From: a virus
Reading direction: 5' to 3' (one strand)
Virus record (IMG/VR): IMGVR_UViG_3300024520_000090
Span: 1 to 55,865 of that record
Length of the DNA: 55,865 nt
The position numbers and the translations under genes are program-made. The notes beneath the pieces were generated by a model. It saw nothing but the letters and a program-made list of their open reading frames with translations. It had not been told where the DNA came from and made no database searches. Below are positions 2,669 through 52,869 of the stretch, in pieces (the first letter of the stretch is position 1; every line of letters starts with the position of its first letter).

Positions 2669-3524
2669 TCCGTGCTCCTAAAAAGTGGGGGGCCCCTACT
2701 CGGCCCCAGTGTAATCCCTTCCGTAGCTTGTTTTTCCTGGTCTTAAATACATTTTGTTTTACCAGTTTCCAGAATAAAGGGGAGTCTGTGAGCTTGAGTA
2801 GTTCAGGTTTTGTCATGTAGTGAGGGGCTGTGATCAGTTTATGCCTAAACTTCAGTCTCTCCAAAATACCACCATCGAGTTGAGGTGGCCACGCTGTTGT
2901 TTCCCAGTCGATATTTAGGGCCCATAATTGGAACCGAGGGTCGTCTGCTAGCATCTCGGTTCCCTCGCGCAAAGCATTGATTACCCAAGGTCGAGGGTCT
3001 CCCGTCATCTTCGAGAGGTAGGAGATTGAGACACCCCAAGAAAAGGTGCGTAATAATTGTACGCTTGGATGGCACCAGATACTCATCGGAATGGTGCCTC
3101 GCTTCATTGAGGCCACTTCGTAGGGGTGAGGGACTGGGAGCTTCCCCCACGACCGGAGCACCTCGTTCGGCCAGGACTTCGGGGCTACCATGGAGTTAGG
3201 TTCGTAGAACCACTCCTTGACGGCAGGGGTGCCATCGAGCCACTCCTTGATCCCAGCGTAGCCCTTGCGAACATAGCGCCTGTTGTACTTAGCCCAGCGG
3301 TAGGGGTACCCCCGGCATTCCTCCCCGTACTGGAGTAGGTGGGGGGGCACTGGACCCCATGGATAGTGGACTGCGGCGATACTGCTCTCGGCCCGTAATG
3401 CCGTAAAGAACAGGGGGCACTTGACATATGCGCTAGGTGGGTGGATCTTCCCCGTCTTGAGTAGGTACTTTTTCTCCGGTTCTTCCGAATTTAGTGCACC
3501 CCCTTGTTCCGCTTCAGCTTTCAT
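2661..3524 (-). CDS. Hypothetical protein with possible HTH segment
   Basis: This 287-residue protein is rich in Trp, Tyr and Pro and has a basic C-terminus. A stretch around residues 155-185 (WGVSISYLSKMTGDPRPWV) has helix-turn-helix spacing and could bind DNA. The gene overlaps the primase-helicase gene by 11 bp at its start and the putative small terminase by 8 bp at its end, so it belongs to the same operon. It could be a replication accessory protein or the true small terminase. I do not recognise the family. Confidence 0.6.
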   Translation of the reverse strand: MKAEAEQGGALNSEEPEKKYLLKTGKIHPPSAYVKCPLFFTALRAESSIAAVHYPWGPVPPHLLQYGEECRGYPYRWAKYNRRYVRKGYAGIKEWLDGTPAVKEWFYEPNSMVAPKSWPNEVLRSWGKLPVPHPYEVASMKRGTIPMSIWCHPSVQLLRTFSWGVSISYLSKMTGDPRPWVINALREGTEMLADDPRFQLWALNIDWETTAWPPQLDGGILERLKFRHKLITAPHYMTKPELLKLTDSPLFWKLVKQNVFKTRKNKLRKGLHWGRVGAPHFLGARNG

Positions 3525-5985
3525 TCCACTTCTCGACAGTGATTAGGTTGCCGAGATCTCTTGGGCTGATGGGCGTGTCTCCTCGTAGCTTGATACCCAA
3601 CCAAGGGCGGTATGTCGTGGCTGAACCCTTCTTCGAGGGCTTGCCCTGACGGAAACTGCGCTCCCGCATGAGCATAGCGAAGAAGCGGGGGTTCATCGCA
3701 CGCTCATGGCTCTCTTCGCACCAGTCGATGTAGGCGTTGTAGAGATTCTTCGGGTTAATCGAGTGCTCCGAGTCCAGTTCGCAGCGGTCCAGGAAAAAGG
3801 GCTTCATCGGGTCAAGCTCTTCGCGGTATTCTTGGGTGGCGTAGATGACTGACTCGGGAGGATTGAGCCCATTGCGCTGCCAATCGAGGCAGCCAGCGAC
3901 TAATCGGTTCAAGATGCCGGGTAACTCCCCTATTAACTTGTTATCAAGCTCCTTATCCTGTTTCTCCTCTGGAATACTGATCTCAAAGGGGACTAAGAGG
4001 ACTCGTCGCCAGATACCTTCGTCATTGCCCTTGATTATCGGCTTATGGTTGGCAGCAAGCCATAATTTGTGGGTAGGGAGGAACTCGAAGAAGTCTTGCT
4101 TCATATATCGGGCCTTGATGGGGTCACCCCCTGTCATTTGCTTGATTGAGGCCTCTGCAAGGGACTTCCCTCGGTCGATCTCCGCGCTAACGACCAAACG
4201 GGCCCCCATTAGGTCGGCTACTTCGGTCGGATGGCGCCCGCTCTTGCTCGCTACGAGTAATTCAGGGGCAGCTTGCTTAGCGTAGGTGCCCATCAGGCGC
4301 TGAATGGTGTTGAGGAAGGTAGACTTACCGTTCGCCCCAGTACCGTAGAGGAAGATGAGCTTCTGCTCTCGGACTGAGCCGGTGAGGGAGTAGCCGAGGT
4401 AGCGGTAGATGAATGAGATGAGGTCGAGGCGCCCCTCGAATATCTCGTGCATGAAGTTATCCCAGATGGGCGATTCTGCGTTGGTGTCATACTCTACCGG
4501 GCAGATCTTTGTTATCAGGTCAGACTTCTTGAAGGCCATTAACTGACCCGTTGTCAGGTCAATCGTGCCATTGGAGGTGTTGAGCTTCCAGGCATCTGCG
4601 TCAAACTTGCGGATAGGGACAGTCATACCAGGCTCGTTAGCTGCTAGCCCGACCATCGCGTGGAGCGAACCTGCGGATTCTGACTTCACGGCGTGCTTGT
4701 AGAACTTGCGGCTGCGCTCAGCGTCGTTCTCAGCGGCTGCTTCCCCGAAGATGTCGGCTACAGCCTCTTCTGCGAGACGCATTATGCGCCCAGTCTCGTC
4801 TAATTCCCACCGCTTGCCCGTGTAGCTTAGCCATTTGGACCAACTGGGAACGTACTTGACGTCCTCTCCGAATCTCTGCACCAGGCGCTTGGCATTACCG
4901 AGGTCGGTAAGCCCTGGAGAAGCAGCGGACGACCCAATAACTTGCGAAGGGGTCCCATCCCCGTCCCCGCTCGCTGTATTGAGCCGCCCGAACTTATCCT
5001 GAAAGGCTCGCCACCCTTTCCTGCCACTCCCAACGCAGCCCTTGTGTAAGCACCCCGCATACACTTCCCCGCTATGGGTCTGCACGATATAGGCGCTTCG
5101 GTCACGGTGATCCTCGTCAAATGGACATTGATCGAGAACCCACTTCCGTCCCTTGTCCCCCCACGGAATGGGAGCGCCTGCGGCAGAGAGATGCGCCGAG
5201 ACCCACAGGTCCAGGCGACGAGCCTTCGCAGAATTCATGGCACCCCGGTTCTCGGGGGCCCGCTTCGCGAATTGTTCTACGAGTTTCTTAGAAACCCGGT
5301 TGAAATCTTCTGGTATCTTGAGGACCTTGGCCAATCGCCAGGGCCTATCCTCGACATCTGCACCTTTGCGCACGGCAGTGCCATATAGCTTCCAGATCCT
5401 GGCTGGATTGAAGACCTTTTGGTCGATTGTTACCCCTTCTGTGTCGAAAAACAGACTCAGAGCGGAGTAAAAGCGCCGAATGATGGGGTCTTTTGGCTTT
5501 AGCGCGACTTTGTAGATGAGGTGCATCCCATTACCCGAGTCTCCGACGATGGGATTGGGCCACCCTTCGGCGTCGAGGCTGAGATAGATCGATCTTAGCA
5601 CTTGAGCGGCGAGTTTCTTCTCGCTATTGGCGGCGCTGACGTGGCTGGGGCGCACTGGGTCGATGTCGATGAGCAGGTAGGTGTGCTCCTGGACGTCATC
5701 GTCGCTTGTGGCGGGCAGCCCTTGCGTGATGCGGTTAGGACTACGGGCAAACAGCGCTGGGTTGATCTGGTTCATGGTGATGTAGACACCAGTGGCCCCA
5801 TCATCAGAACAGGCTGCGGCTGTTGTTGCCAACAGTTCTAGGTCGTTGAAATAACCCGACTTTGCCCGGGTCTTGCCGCCGTAATCGCTCTTGGAAAGCA
5901 CACGAAGCTCGACAACTTGGTCATCAGTAAACAGACTGCGGAGGGTCGCCAGGATCTCTGGGCGATTAGCTGCGGGGGGGTGCAT
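3514..5985 (-). CDS. Primase-helicase (AEP primase plus SF3 helicase)
   Basis: This fused enzyme of 823 residues primes and unwinds DNA at the replication fork. The N-terminal archaeo-eukaryotic primase domain shows the metal-binding DID at 107-109 and SGNGMH at 150-155. A Cys/His cluster at about 284-320 looks like a zinc site. The C-terminal helicase has Walker A GTGANGKST near 547-555, a B-motif acidic stretch VVSAEIDRG and the sensor AANHKP, typical of the phage/plasmid D5/P4-type helicase. Start ATG 5985 has GAGGA nine bases upstream. It is the second gene after the minus promoter and lies next to the candidate origin, which fits origin-proximal initiation. Confidence 0.9.
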   Translation of the reverse strand: MHPPAANRPEILATLRSLFTDDQVVELRVLSKSDYGGKTRAKSGYFNDLELLATTAAACSDDGATGVYITMNQINPALFARSPNRITQGLPATSDDDVQEHTYLLIDIDPVRPSHVSAANSEKKLAAQVLRSIYLSLDAEGWPNPIVGDSGNGMHLIYKVALKPKDPIIRRFYSALSLFFDTEGVTIDQKVFNPARIWKLYGTAVRKGADVEDRPWRLAKVLKIPEDFNRVSKKLVEQFAKRAPENRGAMNSAKARRLDLWVSAHLSAAGAPIPWGDKGRKWVLDQCPFDEDHRDRSAYIVQTHSGEVYAGCLHKGCVGSGRKGWRAFQDKFGRLNTASGDGDGTPSQVIGSSAASPGLTDLGNAKRLVQRFGEDVKYVPSWSKWLSYTGKRWELDETGRIMRLAEEAVADIFGEAAAENDAERSRKFYKHAVKSESAGSLHAMVGLAANEPGMTVPIRKFDADAWKLNTSNGTIDLTTGQLMAFKKSDLITKICPVEYDTNAESPIWDNFMHEIFEGRLDLISFIYRYLGYSLTGSVREQKLIFLYGTGANGKSTFLNTIQRLMGTYAKQAAPELLVASKSGRHPTEVADLMGARLVVSAEIDRGKSLAEASIKQMTGGDPIKARYMKQDFFEFLPTHKLWLAANHKPIIKGNDEGIWRRVLLVPFEISIPEEKQDKELDNKLIGELPGILNRLVAGCLDWQRNGLNPPESVIYATQEYREELDPMKPFFLDRCELDSEHSINPKNLYNAYIDWCEESHERAMNPRFFAMLMRERSFRQGKPSKKGSATTYRPWLGIKLRGDTPISPRDLGNLITVEKWNES

Positions 5986-6333: not shown

Positions 6334-6357
6334 TGTTACTCCTTAGGTCGTATGGGG

Positions 6358-6386
6358 AGACTAAGTCATTGAGAAGGCTATGTCAA
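6358..6386 (-). promoter_or_regulatory. Sigma70-like promoter of the minus-strand unit
   Basis: Read on the minus strand, a perfect -35 TTGACA (6381-6386) is followed after 17 bp by TAGTCT (6358-6363), which matches the -10 consensus at four of six positions. The ATG of the HTH gene lies about 25 bp downstream. This probably drives the HTH gene, the primase-helicase and at least part of the packaging and structural genes. Confidence 0.7.
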
Positions 6387-6599
6387 GCAACTTTCCACCT
6401 TTCTTACAGCCCCTCATAAGCGTTGCTGCTTAGACACTAAGCGGAACAGGCTACCTCTCGAAGTTACTTTAGGGTTTACATGGAATTGACGGCCTGTAAC
6501 CTACTGTAACCTACTTTGTAACCTCTGACTATGGCAGCTTACCCCTAGCTTATCGGAAGATGACTAGGGTGAATTACACAGGTTACAGAAAATCCCGCT

Positions 6600-6660
6600 T
6601 CCTATATATGTATAATGTGTGTATAACATGTGCGTTGATATGAATAATAAAAAAGAGTCT
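6600..6660. other. AT-rich stretch, possible DNA unwinding element
   Basis: This segment is mostly A and T (tatatatgtataatgtgtg and a run of aataataaaaaa) in a genome that is otherwise moderately GC-rich. It sits between the two halves of the repeat array. It contains a TATAAT at 6611-6616, but no -35 at the right distance, so I favour a melting region over a promoter. Confidence 0.5.
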
Positions 6661-6663
6661 TAA

Positions 6664-6677
6664 CCACAGAACTGTGG
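6664..6677. repeat. Perfect 6-bp inverted repeat CCACAG-AA-CTGTGG
   Basis: A short palindrome with two central bases lies inside the candidate origin region. Its geometry suits a dimeric regulator binding site. It is distinct from the GTTACA repeats. Confidence 0.4.
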
Positions 6678-6821
6678 AAAATGGTATATGGGATTCTTTG
6701 TAACTTGTAACTTTTAACTAAGCTATTCCCTATCTAACTAACTTATTTGAGGTTACAGAGAGGTTACAGAGGGTTACAACCAGTAAAGTATATGTCAAGT
6801 CCAGTATGGAGGCTTATTATC

Positions 6822-7019
6822 TTAATGGGAACAGAGGATATGCGAAAAACCGCTGTTGGTTTCTGGGACTCCTATGGCAAATGGCAAATGGCATGGCCCG
6901 AAAGGGGGGATGGGTCCCCGTGTTCCGATTTCGGCACCTGGGTATGGCGTGTCGTTTGGGTCGTCTCGCGTGGGGTGGAGAGAGTGCGTCTCTTCCCTGT
7001 ACACGTATTGTGCGCTCAA
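6822..7019 (-). CDS. Possible small minus-strand protein, unrecognised
   Basis: A 65-residue frame opens with TTG at 7019; a GTG a few codons in is an alternative start. Composition (charged N-terminus, then Pro/Gly-rich with PNDTPYPGAEIG) is more protein-like than the opposite frames. No clear ribosome binding site or family is seen. It lies in a 1.2-kb stretch where no long frame is convincing on either strand, so it may be a real small gene or a remnant. Confidence 0.25.
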   Translation of the reverse strand: MSAQYVYREETHSLHPTRDDPNDTPYPGAEIGTRGPIPPFGPCHLPFAIGVPETNSGFSHILCSH

Positions 7020-7043
7020 ATGGGAACACTGTCCAGGACTTTC

Positions 7044-7214
7044 TCAATTAATTGATAACGTAGTTTCGCCCGTACCTCCAACCAGGCTACACGTTATACA
7101 TATATACGCGGAATGTAAACACTGTTCACTTGAAGCTCCAGCGGCATTAGCGGAAGCTTTACAATCCTCTGCCCATTGTATACGTTCCGAATACACCAGA
7201 AAGTGGTCCCGCAT
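7044..7214 (-). CDS. Possible 56-residue minus-strand protein
   Basis: The ATG at 7214 has AAGGG five bases upstream and the frame runs 56 codons to TGA at 7044-7046. The product has a plausible amphipathic helix (IQWAEDCKASANAAG) and four cysteines. It overlaps a 221-codon open frame on the plus strand, which looks like an antisense shadow (Ser/Pro/Arg-rich). Function unknown. Confidence 0.3.
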   Translation of the reverse strand: MRDHFLVYSERIQWAEDCKASANAAGASSEQCLHSAYICITCSLVGGTGETTLSIN

Positions 7215-7376
7215 AAATGCCCTTGCCGATGCCTTCTATGCGTATCTGGTATCCCTTGTTCGTTATCGGTCTCTCCATTCACTGGATTCAGGCCCTTCGT
7301 CGAGGTGCTCACCAGGGTGCAAGCTGGGGTCTGTCGTGCCCCCCATGGCTGGTCGGTTCCCAATTATCTCACCATT

Positions 7377-8061
7377 CTATTCGGTAGCGGCAAAGCCTTT
7401 CTGCATATTCGGAACAAATAACGCTACCCCTGGAGCCTCGGTGAATATAGGATGGGGTGTCTCCAGAAATTCTCCGGCGGCACGCTCTCTGAAATTCTCC
7501 GAAGTTTTCCCCGCTACCTAGCGTAGGCCAGTCCATTGCTTTCATTGCATACACGGACGCTACCTGACCAGCGGGGTCTACATACTCGGAGAAACGGTGT
7601 CCAATCGGCACGCAAGCTCGCCAGTCTTCACGGACTGGGTTACCATCGGGGATAACTCCCCTGCTTCTAATCGGAGTTAATGGCAGCCGGCACTCGTTGA
7701 ACGGGCACACCTCACACGGTAGGAAGAGACGACTATATGTCGCCGCGTGTGGGCTTCTAATCGATGATTCAGTATCCATTGGAAGAGAAAGAACCGACGG
7801 GGCTCCCTTTGCCTCCCCGTTGAAATTGCGCAGGATAGGTGCGCTTAGCCCGGGGGTCATACAGATCCCAGTCGACACGAATATGTCTCCGAATTCTGGG
7901 GAGACTAGTGAGTCCGAGTATAAACGGACGGGGATCGGCGGTAATACCTGGCGAGTGCTGAAAACAAGGCTTAGATGCCTTGCGAATACAGTTCTCAACG
8001 CGACAAACGGGAACACCCGGGGTTGACACCCCCGGGCTTCCAATTGAGCAGCACGGCCCAA
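7377..8061 (-). pseudogene. Possible frameshifted minus-strand gene, unrecognised
   Basis: A minus frame opening at TTG 8061 reads as a plausible protein through a Cys cluster (CEVCPFNEC) until about 7512, where it becomes unlikely. Shifting by one base at the run GGGGAAAA (plus-strand TTTTCCCC, 7505-7512) continues into another plausible stretch (GKTSENFRERAAGEFLETP) ending at TAG 7377. Removing one G would fuse the two into a protein of about 228 residues. This could be a pseudogene, a sequencing indel, a programmed frameshift, or chance. The start is uncertain and no strong ribosome binding site precedes it. No family is recognised. Confidence 0.3.
8016..8036 (+). promoter_or_regulatory. 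GC hairpin CCCGGGG-ttgacac-CCCCGGG
   Basis: A perfect 7-bp GC stem with a 7-base loop lies just upstream of a second hairpin. No U-run follows on either strand, so a simple intrinsic terminator is unlikely. The loop contains TTGACA, but no -10 box lies at the expected distance. It may be part of a structured 5' leader of the plus-strand operon. Confidence 0.45.
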
Positions 8062-8082
8062 TGGTCCTGCTGCTCTATTGGA
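8039..8082 (+). promoter_or_regulatory. Leader hairpin overlapping the first plus-strand ribosome binding site
   Basis: Bases 8039-8053 pair with 8068-8082 at 14 of 15 positions (one T-T mismatch), enclosing a 14-base loop. The 3' arm ends in GGA, which is part of the GGAGG at 8080-8084 serving the ATG at 8093. Folding would partly hide the Shine-Dalgarno sequence, so this is a candidate translational switch for the first plus-strand gene. The length of the stem makes chance unlikely. Confidence 0.6.
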
Positions 8083-8092
8083 GGTTAGTCAC

Positions 8093-8341
8093 ATGAACGA
8101 ACAAGAGCAGGCGCTATTACGGCGCCTTTTATCCGTGCATCCTTGCACCGGTGCCGAGTGCACCGTTACCAAGCACGGCTTCATCGATGGCGACGACGGC
8201 CGGTTTTATCCGGGCTGGCTGGTAGTTGATACCGGTCGTATCACCGCTAACAAATATTTTCTAATGGGTGCCACCGATGGCATCGAGTATCGTTTCATTA
8301 TTGACGGCCGCTACAAGCGAGCCCATGTACAGGCTGTATAG
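8093..8341 (+). CDS. Hypothetical early protein (82 aa)
   Basis: First gene of the plus-strand cluster. The ATG at 8093 is chosen because GGAGG lies eight bases upstream; the in-frame TTG at 8078 falls before it. The product is a compact alpha/beta-type sequence with a cysteine pair near residue 19 (HPCTGAEC) and no recognised domain. Its translation may be controlled by the hairpin at 8039-8082. As the first early gene it may act on the host, but that is inference. Confidence 0.65.
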   Translation: MNEQEQALLRRLLSVHPCTGAECTVTKHGFIDGDDGRFYPGWLVVDTGRITANKYFLMGATDGIEYRFIIDGRYKRAHVQAV

Positions 8342-8354
8342 CCGGGGAGTCAGC

Positions 8355-8576
8355 ATGAGAAAGATAGTAGCCGGAGTGAGGCGGTACGTCCGCATCGAGA
8401 CGAGCCACGACAGGCTCAAGACAAAACCGACACGGAATATCCGGCCAGCCGGGCGCACTAAGCGCAAAACTGAACCCGTCGTTATGATTGGCGAGGAAGC
8501 CAAGTCAATGAGCGCCGCTGAATGGGGCGCCAAGATCACCAACAATTTCACGAGACCACTCGTGATCGCACCCTAA
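8355..8576 (+). CDS. Hypothetical basic early protein (73 aa)
   Basis: The ATG at 8355 follows GGGGAG. The product is strongly basic in its first 45 residues (many Arg and Lys), which suggests nucleic-acid binding, then ends in a less charged segment. An upstream in-frame ATG at 8268 would overlap the previous gene by 74 bp and lacks a ribosome binding site. No family recognised. Confidence 0.6.
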   Translation: MRKIVAGVRRYVRIETSHDRLKTKPTRNIRPAGRTKRKTEPVVMIGEEAKSMSAAEWGAKITNNFTRPLVIAP

Positions 8577-8584
8577 GGAGCACC

Positions 8585-8944
8585 ATGCTAGTATTGTACA
8601 ATGTGACCATCGAGTATCTACAAGATGCCCTCGACTTCCACGACTATCCAAACCAGACCCTAGTCAAGGGGCGGCCGATCGCTCTCGGGATCTCCCCCTT
8701 ATTCGATGAACGGATACAACGGGCACAGGATATGATCCGACGCTTACAGGCTACACTCCAGCCCGACGTGGCGCCGGAGCTTTGCCAACAACTGGACGCG
8801 CTCTACCGCTTCCTGATTGACCAGTTAACAATAGCGCTGGACACAGGTGAAACCGCACCCATTGACTCCGTGCTCAATATCCTCACGGACTTGCGCTCGG
8901 CGTGGCGCCATGCGGTGCACGAAGTGGAGGAAGAATGTCAGTAA
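8585..8944 (+). CDS. FliS-like (flagellin export chaperone-like) protein
   Basis: This 119-residue, almost wholly helical protein follows the FliS pattern. Residues 1-16 (LYNVTIEYLQDA) resemble the first FliS helix (LYDGAIRFLxxA). Residues 44-58 (IQRAQDMIRRLQATL) match the helix that in FliS reads kAQdIIxeLxxsL. Residues 70-83 match LdaLYxfmxxqL, and 96-108 (VLNILTDLRSAWR) the final helix. FliS binds the flagellin C-terminus in the cytoplasm and delivers it for export. Here the protein starts at the LYDG helix, so the N-terminal segment that caps the flagellin groove in FliS is absent. Start ATG 8585 has AAGGAG nearby; the frame upstream is not FliS-like. Confidence 0.6.
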   Translation: MLVLYNVTIEYLQDALDFHDYPNQTLVKGRPIALGISPLFDERIQRAQDMIRRLQATLQPDVAPELCQQLDALYRFLIDQLTIALDTGETAPIDSVLNILTDLRSAWRHAVHEVEEECQ

Positions 8945-9198
8945 TAACACTTGACCCGATAGGGCTCGCCTTGGAAGATGCGGCACGCCAGCTTGCCCTG
9001 CTACGAGCAGCGCAGCACTGCCCCCACTGGGCAGATGACATGGGGCTCATAGCCCATGTGGCACCTACGAGTACAATCCTCATAGCAGCGGGACGCGACC
9101 ACAGCAACGACGGGTACGGCCAACGCTACGAGTTCACTTATCACATCCCCTACATGGGGCGACTTCACGAGATCGACATCGGGTTGATCATTGACTAA
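8935..9198 (+). CDS. Hypothetical early protein (87 aa)
   Basis: The ATG at 8935 overlaps the end of the FliS-like gene by 10 bp and has GGAGGAAG just upstream, so the two are probably co-translated. The sequence has an N-terminal helix rich in Ala and Leu and a C-terminal beta-type half. No domain is recognised. Tight coupling makes a joint role with the FliS-like protein possible but unproven. Confidence 0.6.
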   Translation: MSVITLDPIGLALEDAARQLALLRAAQHCPHWADDMGLIAHVAPTSTILIAAGRDHSNDGYGQRYEFTYHIPYMGRLHEIDIGLIID

Positions 9199-9854: not shown

Positions 9855-10670
9855 ATGCTAAGAGGATTTGCGGCATACCACCGCGACAAAATGAAACAGC
9901 TACGGACCCGTGCTCGGCGGATGTTTCGAGGCAGGTTTGGCGATGTCTCCAACGGGGTCATCCTGTACGAGGGCCCGAGCCAACTAGACCCGAGCCAGGA
10001 CATCGTCGTCATCGCAACGGGGCTTAACCGCCCGAGCAAGAACGACAAGACGGATGACATGATCCAGGTTTGGATCCTACTGCAAGACGTGGCACCCACT
10101 AAGGCTAACCAGCAAGGGTTAGACGTGGCTGTATGCGGCGACTGTAAGCATAGGCAGTGGCAACGGCAGGATGACGGCAGCATGGCCAAGGTGGGCTCAT
10201 GCTACGTGGTACTCCACAATGCCCCTCTCTCGGTATACAAAGCATACAAGCGAGGGAACTACCCGTGGCTCGACCCCGAGTCAGCACGAGAGCTACTCCG
10301 CGACACCTGGGTACGCTTCGGCGCCTATGGCGATCCGAGTGCGGTGCCTGTTCACATCTGGGAACCGATTCGGGATGTGGTCAGGAAGTACACCGGGTAT
10401 ACACACCAATGGCGCAACCTTGGCCCCGAGTGGCACTGGCTTATGGCAAGCGTAGACACCCCAGCCGAGAGGCTTGAGGCCATGCGCATGGGCTGGCGCT
10501 ACTTCCGAGTGAAGGGTGAGGACGACGAACTATTCGATAACGAGCAGGTATGCGCCTCCGAGGCACGAGGTACATCCTGCGCAGCGTGCGGCTTGTGCGC
10601 TGGGATGTCAACAGCCAAAGCAAAGAGCCAAGTCATCACGGTGCACGGCGTGTTTGCTGGGAACTTCTAG
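9855..10670 (+). CDS. Conserved phage Cys-rich protein (DUF7227-like)
   Basis: Start ATG 9855 has AGGAGG six bases upstream; the longer open frame back to 9627 overlaps the previous gene and is rejected. The 271-residue product carries CGDCKHR near residue 93 with a later GSCYV, and a C-terminal CAACGLC cluster (about 239-245), suggesting one or two metal sites. The pattern of a CGDCxHR box followed by CYV and an aromatic segment recurs in a family common in phages and plasmids that I associate with DUF7227. Function is unknown there too. The family name is from memory and needs a profile search. Confidence 0.6.
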   Translation: MLRGFAAYHRDKMKQLRTRARRMFRGRFGDVSNGVILYEGPSQLDPSQDIVVIATGLNRPSKNDKTDDMIQVWILLQDVAPTKANQQGLDVAVCGDCKHRQWQRQDDGSMAKVGSCYVVLHNAPLSVYKAYKRGNYPWLDPESARELLRDTWVRFGAYGDPSAVPVHIWEPIRDVVRKYTGYTHQWRNLGPEWHWLMASVDTPAERLEAMRMGWRYFRVKGEDDELFDNEQVCASEARGTSCAACGLCAGMSTAKAKSQVITVHGVFAGNF

Positions 10671-51057: not shown

Positions 51058-52869
51058 CTATTGGTTGCGGGCCATGATCTGTTGTAACATACTTTGTGGT
51101 GACGCGGGTGCCGTAGATCCGGCTCCTCCTGCGGGTAACGGTACCTGCGGGGGCTCCTCAACCCCTGGCGGGAGGCCTCCTGCGACGAGGTTATCCTGCC
51201 CCTGAGGTGCGGGCATCGGCATACCCTCCATCCCGGGCATCGGCATCCCGGGCATCTCTGGTTGTGGTGGGTTGTCCTGCATGATGCCGTTTAGCTCCAG
51301 TAGTTCGAGTAACTTCAAGATCAGTTTTTCTTTATCCACCTGGGGTGATTCAAGTAGCAGGGGCATGTATTGCTGTATCTTTTGGAGTTGGATCAAGGAG
51401 TGGTTCTCTGTTGGAGAATAGGGAACAGCAGAATAGTCGTAGTCCATTGGGCCCTCGTTGGGATCGCGTTCATCCCGGACACGCAGAGCCTCGCGAGTCA
51501 CCTCTAAAATCTCACGGCTACCAGTCAAACGCAAGGGAAGAATTGTATCTTCAGGAAGAAACTCCTCGTAGAGCCCGATTACATTGTTGCCCAGCAGTGT
51601 AACAAGGTCCTCAACCGCCTTGATCCTACGTCCGTTCCGAGTACGAGTGGCCGTATCAGCCAGGGCTACCTCGGTGGCAACATCAGCTACGCCCACTACA
51701 CCGCGACTGTACTGGGGGATACCCAAGATAAACTCAATAACCTGGGTGCAGCGTTCCCGCATCTGGCTAAACGACGGCTGAAACTGGGGTGTCGGGGTTT
51801 GTCCAATGAGATCCCGCAGGGGTGCATCGGCTTTACCCATGACAGCGACCATAGATCCGGGCTCACTTGCATCCCGGAGTGCTGTCGTAATGGTCTCCGG
51901 GTTATCCACGAGCCCTGTATTGACAAGCAGAACCGGGGTAGACGCATGGGCGTGCCATAGCTCTAGCGTATCGATCTCGTTCAGACGCTCTTGTAGCGAG
52001 CTAATTAGCTTAATATCAGACATGCCACCAAGATCCGACATGTTGTCGTTGAACTGGAGCATGGCAAATGGGTTACGGACATAACGATAAGGAAGCTCTC
52101 CCTCGAAGAGGGGCTCCTCGACATTGTCCAGCATATGGTAATACTTGCCTTCGCCCTGGAAGTCGTAGACCTCGTAGACGGTAACCCAGTTGTAGACCTC
52201 AACGCTCGCCTGATTGATGGCATCCTTGTTACGGACACTGTCTTTAAGCCATACGGGATAGCCCCCGAACTGAGCTTTCTCTGCGACCTTCGGTCGATAC
52301 ATGGCGCCTTTTCCGCCCTTGCGCTTTGCTCGTTGCTTGAACTCTTCCTTCGTAAGCACGCTAACTTCGATAAGGTAGCGCAGGTCCTCCCAGCGGGGGG
52401 CTGACATATCGAAGAAGACGAAGCGAGGGTCTATGCTAAAGAACTCGGTCATCTGCTTATTGAAGTTCCAGACGGCTTTCAGGAACCCGCGCCCACATAT
52501 CGAGGTGTGAGTGGCTGTCTTCCACAGTAGCGTATGGGTGTTATTCCGACTAAGCACATCGTTAATCAAGGCTTCCCGGAACTTAGCTACCTCACGTAGC
52601 TCTTCGCGCTTCGCTGCGACTGTGACCTGGGGGTTTGTCGGGCAGACATTTGCGATCATCGTGTCGATGTAGGCATAGGGGTAGTTGGTCTCGAAGTTAA
52701 TCTCCTCCTCACCGAGGATGGGACCCGAGCCCTGGGGCTGCTCGCTAGAAGCACGCCAGTATTCCGCGAGGTACCAGCTACGCCAGCGGTCCCATGAGGT
52801 GCGCTCTGTCCGTGTTTTCGTCTTGTGGGTCTCTATGATCCCACGGATCTGCTTTGGTGTCAGTGCCAT
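51058..52869 (-). CDS. Portal protein
   Basis: This 603-residue protein has the sequence character of podovirus portals: an N-terminal YLAEYW segment, helical stretches with conserved aromatic residues (FFSIDPRFVFFD), and a Pro/Gln/Met-rich C-terminal tail. Twelve copies form the DNA channel at one vertex and bind terminase and adaptor. Its ATG follows directly on the TAG of the polyvalent protein gene. Order (portal, scaffold, capsid) supports the call. Confidence 0.85.
   Translation of the reverse strand: MALTPKQIRGIIETHKTKTRTERTSWDRWRSWYLAEYWRASSEQPQGSGPILGEEEINFETNYPYAYIDTMIANVCPTNPQVTVAAKREELREVAKFREALINDVLSRNNTHTLLWKTATHTSICGRGFLKAVWNFNKQMTEFFSIDPRFVFFDMSAPRWEDLRYLIEVSVLTKEEFKQRAKRKGGKGAMYRPKVAEKAQFGGYPVWLKDSVRNKDAINQASVEVYNWVTVYEVYDFQGEGKYYHMLDNVEEPLFEGELPYRYVRNPFAMLQFNDNMSDLGGMSDIKLISSLQERLNEIDTLELWHAHASTPVLLVNTGLVDNPETITTALRDASEPGSMVAVMGKADAPLRDLIGQTPTPQFQPSFSQMRERCTQVIEFILGIPQYSRGVVGVADVATEVALADTATRTRNGRRIKAVEDLVTLLGNNVIGLYEEFLPEDTILPLRLTGSREILEVTREALRVRDERDPNEGPMDYDYSAVPYSPTENHSLIQLQKIQQYMPLLLESPQVDKEKLILKLLELLELNGIMQDNPPQPEMPGMPMPGMEGMPMPAPQGQDNLVAGGLPPGVEEPPQVPLPAGGAGSTAPASPQSMLQQIMARNQ

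Follow-up and report, generated by a model that had tools for sequence, protein, structure and literature searches.

The stretch of DNA analysed here (the window, 55,865 nucleotides) is the entire IMG/VR record of a phage, and it carries a FliS-like gene at 8585..8944 on the plus strand. A terminase (550-2268), a D5-type primase (3517-5985) and, within a leftward structural cluster, a portal (51061-52869) are encoded on the minus strand, and a rightward early and replication cluster with a helicase, an exonuclease, a Sak4-like protein and a DNA polymerase begins at 8093. The FliS-like gene sits in this early cluster, distant from the structural genes. Between the leftward primase and HTH genes and the rightward early cluster, about 1.7 kb (6334-8077) is without a convincing gene and is possibly an origin or regulatory region; the interval 7604-8106 is shared at 79% identity with a sister phage described below.

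The FliS-like gene starts at ATG 8585, just 3' of a Shine-Dalgarno sequence (AAGGAG, 8575..8580, plus strand), and encodes 119 residues, the stop codon lying within the coordinates and the product beginning at FliS helix 1 (MLVLYN...). Its codon-position GC (0.66/0.34/0.66) is similar to that of the neighbouring genes. A longer reading frame from ATG 8522 was rejected: its 21 additional residues, MGRQDHQQFHETTRDRTLRST, come from an out-of-frame reading of the upstream 73-aa gene and bear no resemblance to a FliS N-terminus. The neighbours, all on the plus strand and of unassigned function, are an 82-aa gene (8093..8341) that opens the early operon, the 73-aa gene (8355..8576) and an 87-aa gene (8935..9198), which starts inside the 3' end of the FliS-like gene and, given this overlap, is probably co-translated with it. 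The open reading frame of 119 residues proposed in the preliminary description was thus borne out by the Shine-Dalgarno sequence, the codon-position GC and the adjoining frame at 8935.

A second copy was found in the sister phage (IMGVR_UViG_3300009136_000026, here L054), the portal and primase of which are 96% and 92% identical to those of the window phage. This FliS of 99 aa (L054:1418-1717, minus strand) is the first gene after the leader of the early operon, the slot held in the window phage by the 82-aa gene, and FliS is the third early-operon gene in the window phage. The gene order reads leader-82aa-73aa-FliS in the window phage, leader-FliS-73aa in the sister and leader-73aa in a further phage of the group (L053), where no FliS was recognised; the 73-aa gene therefore lies 5' of FliS in the window phage and 3' of it in the sister. 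The two FliS proteins are 38% identical over 106 aa, compared with 75% for the flanking 73-aa protein and 97% for the flanking 271-aa protein. In both, FliS is flanked by phage genes, none of them flagellar. No FliS was detected when the entire records of the other relatives, among them contigs of 42-50 kb that are possibly incomplete, were searched by profile, and because of this lack of a match FliS looks to be an accessory gene of the phage group, with a variable position in the early operon. That the gene is among the first of the early cluster was confirmed, for the rightward genes, by this gene order, from which early expression of the FliS-like gene is also inferred.

The assignment to FliS, already made in the preliminary description, was upheld by profile, sequence and structure comparisons. 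A Pfam search with the window protein matched PF02561 (FliS) with E=4.9e-15 and a score of 56.2 bits, the cut-off being 26.7, covering residues 41-110, and no other Pfam family. When the PDB was searched by sequence, Aquifex FliS (1orj) ranked first with E=1.3e-7, and since the alignment spans residues 2-114 of the window protein, helix 1 is included. The sister FliS scored 38.6 bits against PF02561. A structural model built from the two phage sequences had a poor pLDDT of 56.7, yet its best eight PDB fold matches were all FliS. The addition of 65 cellular FliS rows raised the pLDDT to 92.7, and the best 16 PDB matches were then all FliS (r.m.s.d. 1.7-3.0 Å); this model leans on a mostly cellular FliS alignment and so speaks for compatibility with the fold rather than as independent proof of it. 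The modelled protein is a four-helix bundle of the FliS fold, in which the loop between helices 1 and 2 is longer by 13 residues. Thus the window protein is a genuine FliS homologue on the evidence of Pfam, PDB sequence and fold matches. Against the NCBIfam equivalog TIGR00208, which describes the working export chaperone, it scored 41.4 bits, below the cut-off of 53.75, and a PHROGs search returned a match at chance level only.

Both phage copies begin at helix 1 and are without the N-terminal segment that precedes it in cellular FliS; the earlier observation that the protein starts at the LYDG helix was confirmed in the window phage and extended to its sister. For comparison, 80 cellular FliS sequences from many phyla were fetched by the DNA pattern MLYDG...LREAW, of which 78 were readable. 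In 77 of these the frame before MLYDG encodes a segment with an upstream aromatic residue, mostly tyrosine, and a turn before helix 1, a proportion to be read as a descriptive count, the motif pattern having been widened after inspection of these same sequences. The single exception, from a Thermoanaerobacteraceae MAG (L078), has nine residues before MLYDG and represents either a cellular form without the segment or an assembly frameshift. In the structure of Aquifex FliS, the residues before the LYDG helix cap the flagellin-binding groove. The preliminary description had considered the segment solely as such a cap, which is incomplete, since in B. subtilis it also docks FliS on FlhA, through Tyr7 and Tyr10, both of which lie outside the flagellin interface; either removal of codons 2-18 or the change Y7A,Y10A in B. 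subtilis fliS phenocopies the deletion (PMC6070490). As the B. subtilis segment contacts FlhA and not flagellin, the main predicted effect of its loss, by analogy, would be an absence of export docking with flagellin binding retained, to which an open groove may add.

The residues of the putative flagellin clamp were compared with the twelve FliS residues listed as touching flagellin in the H. pylori structure (PMC7248283), which were placed on the phage proteins by hand, via alignments. Five of the twelve are identical in the window protein (Tyr28, Arg56, Leu64, Tyr84 and Asn108) and seven differ, Arg33, Gly73 and Gln87 among them. The sister FliS retains Arg33, Arg56, Tyr84 and Asn108 and has His in place of Tyr28, and in both phage proteins the LYDG and A-N motifs and several surface positions are changed. 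As judged from these alignments, the gate-docking half is lost, and the part of the clamp that is conserved in the family is largely retained in the window protein. Given the seven altered contacts, the altered LYDG and A-N motifs and the His of the sister, the client of phage FliS could have changed.

The best cellular matches of the window protein belong to the phylum of L125. Since sampling of the phylum of L132 (Myxococcales bacterium 68-20) yields the same genomes again, we take the donor phylum to be Myxococcota. Three genomes of one order stood at the top, with 61-63 bits and, across the final three helices, 45-47% identity, followed by 52 bits for the next best in the same phylum and by up to 42 bits in the one other phylum sampled. 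The sister FliS independently placed three genomes of the same order on top. In a maximum-likelihood tree the two phage proteins formed one clade (97/96) inside the FliS clade of that order (100/98), their branches being long enough that long-branch attraction between the two is possible. The simplest reading of these sequence relationships is that the gene was captured once, from a lineage of this phylum that has flagella, and lost its N-terminal segment before the two phages diverged; the donor group is probably also the host group. A search for the phage portal in donor-order genomes, which had no positive control, came back empty.

The pair appears to stand apart among phages, as far as pattern-based scans, which miss diverged copies, can show within these searches. 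With the window protein as query, no other phage FliS was found in IMG/VR or INPHARED; a two-row phage profile retrieved the sister only from IMG/VR and nothing from genome_contigs; and neither the canonical FliS DNA pattern nor the nearest cellular FliS had a match in IMG/VR. No match to the model was found among the BFVD viral structures at E<=0.001, and 25 records of distant phages sharing the DNA polymerase contained no FliS. Cellular FliS queries matched six INPHARED records. The three that were examined (MT836129, MT836588 and OR846792) were rejected as phage FliS: flgK and fliD adjoin fliS in these records, which are bacterial flagellar gene clusters under phage names, with flagellin also present in MT836129 and MT836588 and pyruvate formate-lyase in MT836129. 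The other three are Listeria-labelled records. The open-access literature yielded no paper describing a phage FliS, and the earlier statement that none had been described accordingly stood, with none genuine beyond this pair in INPHARED, PHROGs, BFVD, IMG/VR or open-access papers.

Selection on the gene was assessed over a 33-codon core (PELC...DSV), picked as the best-conserved stretch between the two phages and therefore informative on the core, not on the whole protein. Here 23 of the 33 residues are identical, and matches at first, second and third codon positions number 26, 24 and 12, the third being nearly randomised; 12 of the 23 identical residues use different codons. With core residues kept while third positions differ, the core is under purifying selection, and the gene is kept for its protein. 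This bears directly on whether FliS could be decaying cargo, acquired from a host and serving no function in the phage. The shortened N-terminus, the fast evolution, the failure to find the gene in other relatives and its differing position in the two phages would all suit such a gene. However, the frame is intact and has a ribosome-binding site in each of the two phages, core amino acids are retained against near-random third positions, and the gene occupies the first early-operon slot in the sister, all of which makes decay very improbable. Still less credible is a working export helper that raises flagellin export and the motility of the infected cell; such a role would fit the fold and origin of the protein, which nevertheless lacks the segment required for FlhA docking and export and falls below the equivalog cut-off.

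The reading that we consider likeliest is a dominant-negative flagellin trap, because the missing segment is the one that docks on FlhA, outside the flagellin interface. Phage FliS would be made early in infection and, like cellular FliS, would bind host flagellin at its C-terminal D0 region. Without the tyrosine-bearing N-terminal helix, the FliS-flagellin complex would not dock on the export gate protein FlhA, so that flagellin would be retained in the cytoplasm, host FliS would face a competitor and filament growth would halt. Such a decoy would amount to a two-sided adaptor minus one half. The phage might thereby be spared the expense of making and exporting flagellin, keep the infected cell from moving, or exclude superinfecting phages that depend on the flagellum. 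We give roughly an even chance to the proposal that FliS was captured from a Myxococcota-like flagellated order and remodelled by the phage into an early flagellin trap that has no FlhA docking and stops filament growth. An alternative, rather unlikely in our estimation, is that the FliS bundle was retargeted to serve a phage protein or another host protein, with flagellin no longer its client. The changes to LYDG, A-N and several surface positions in both phages, the extended loop that joins helix 1 to helix 2 in the window protein and the rapid divergence speak for retargeting. Set against them are the central contacts that persist: Arg56, Tyr84 and Asn108 in both phages, and in the window protein Tyr28 and Leu64 as well. 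No flagellin-C-like protein was found encoded in the phage, and a long distance separates the FliS-like gene, in the early cluster, from the structural genes. FliS has further partners, for example FliW and FlgM. A regulatory decoy that binds flagellin or such partners, and shifts flagellar gene control rather than export, gains some credit from the ties between FliS, flagellin and FliW in the flagellin homeostasis of B. subtilis (PMC6070490), but is improbable, as the missing segment points most directly to FlhA docking.

The nearest known counterparts resemble phage FliS in some respects and differ from it in others. Cellular FliS of the donor order (represented by G277, G295, G300 and G327; L182-L184 and L187) shares with the phage proteins the four-helix bundle, an APELC-type loop before helix 3 and the core motifs. 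In contrast to them it carries the docking segment at its N-terminus; in L183 it is full length and encoded directly downstream of flagellin. Phage FliS, by comparison, is without the segment, has altered LYDG and A-N motifs and lies in a phage early operon. The B. subtilis mutants without codons 2-18 or with Y7A,Y10A are engineered analogues, their FlhA-docking residues being likewise gone; they are, however, laboratory-made and phenocopy a deletion, and that report was not found to describe any dominant-negative effect in the presence of wild-type FliS (PMC6070490). Small phage proteins that halt host motility, as proposed for phage FliS, include PfsE, which binds PilC of the type IV pilus and mediates superinfection exclusion (PMC8764522), and PIT4, the product of an early phage gene, which binds histidine kinases (PMC10714779). 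Their targets are the type IV pilus and two-component kinases, and neither is described as an altered copy of a host flagellar chaperone. That a phage has turned its host's flagellin chaperone, by loss of the export-docking helix, into a dominant-negative inhibitor dedicated to blocking flagellum assembly, making this the first FliS of a virus and an example of a truncated host adaptor used to shut off the host, is a claim we advance tentatively and put at a little under even. If this is true, the chaperone step would be the point at which phages attack flagellum assembly, using a protein copied from the host itself, and phage FliS would provide a small genetically encoded tool for freezing flagellin export, a host clue for a phage group known here from metagenomes only, and a test, supplied by nature, of the model in which FliS has two sides, a flagellin clamp and an FlhA dock.

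The early operon has other features that merit description. A leader hairpin at 8038..8083 (plus strand) before the first early gene is kept in three phages of the group, being conserved at 1714-1773 of L054 and 7355-7416 of L053 (both minus strand), with z-scores of -4.8, -5.2 and -4.1 in the window, L054 and L053, respectively. Its 3' arm extends into the Shine-Dalgarno sequence, at least one compensatory pair change is present, and it precedes three different first genes, the 82-aa gene, FliS and the 73-aa gene in the same order of phages; it may thus control translation of whichever gene stands first. The hairpin had no Rfam match, and a sigma-70 promoter scan near the leader gave matches no better than chance. 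PADLOC matched none of seven early genes. Further into the cluster, an early protein of 271 aa (9855-10670), which has no Pfam match, is 97% identical in the sister phage while the surrounding genes are far more diverged, a pattern that suggests recent exchange or strong constraint.
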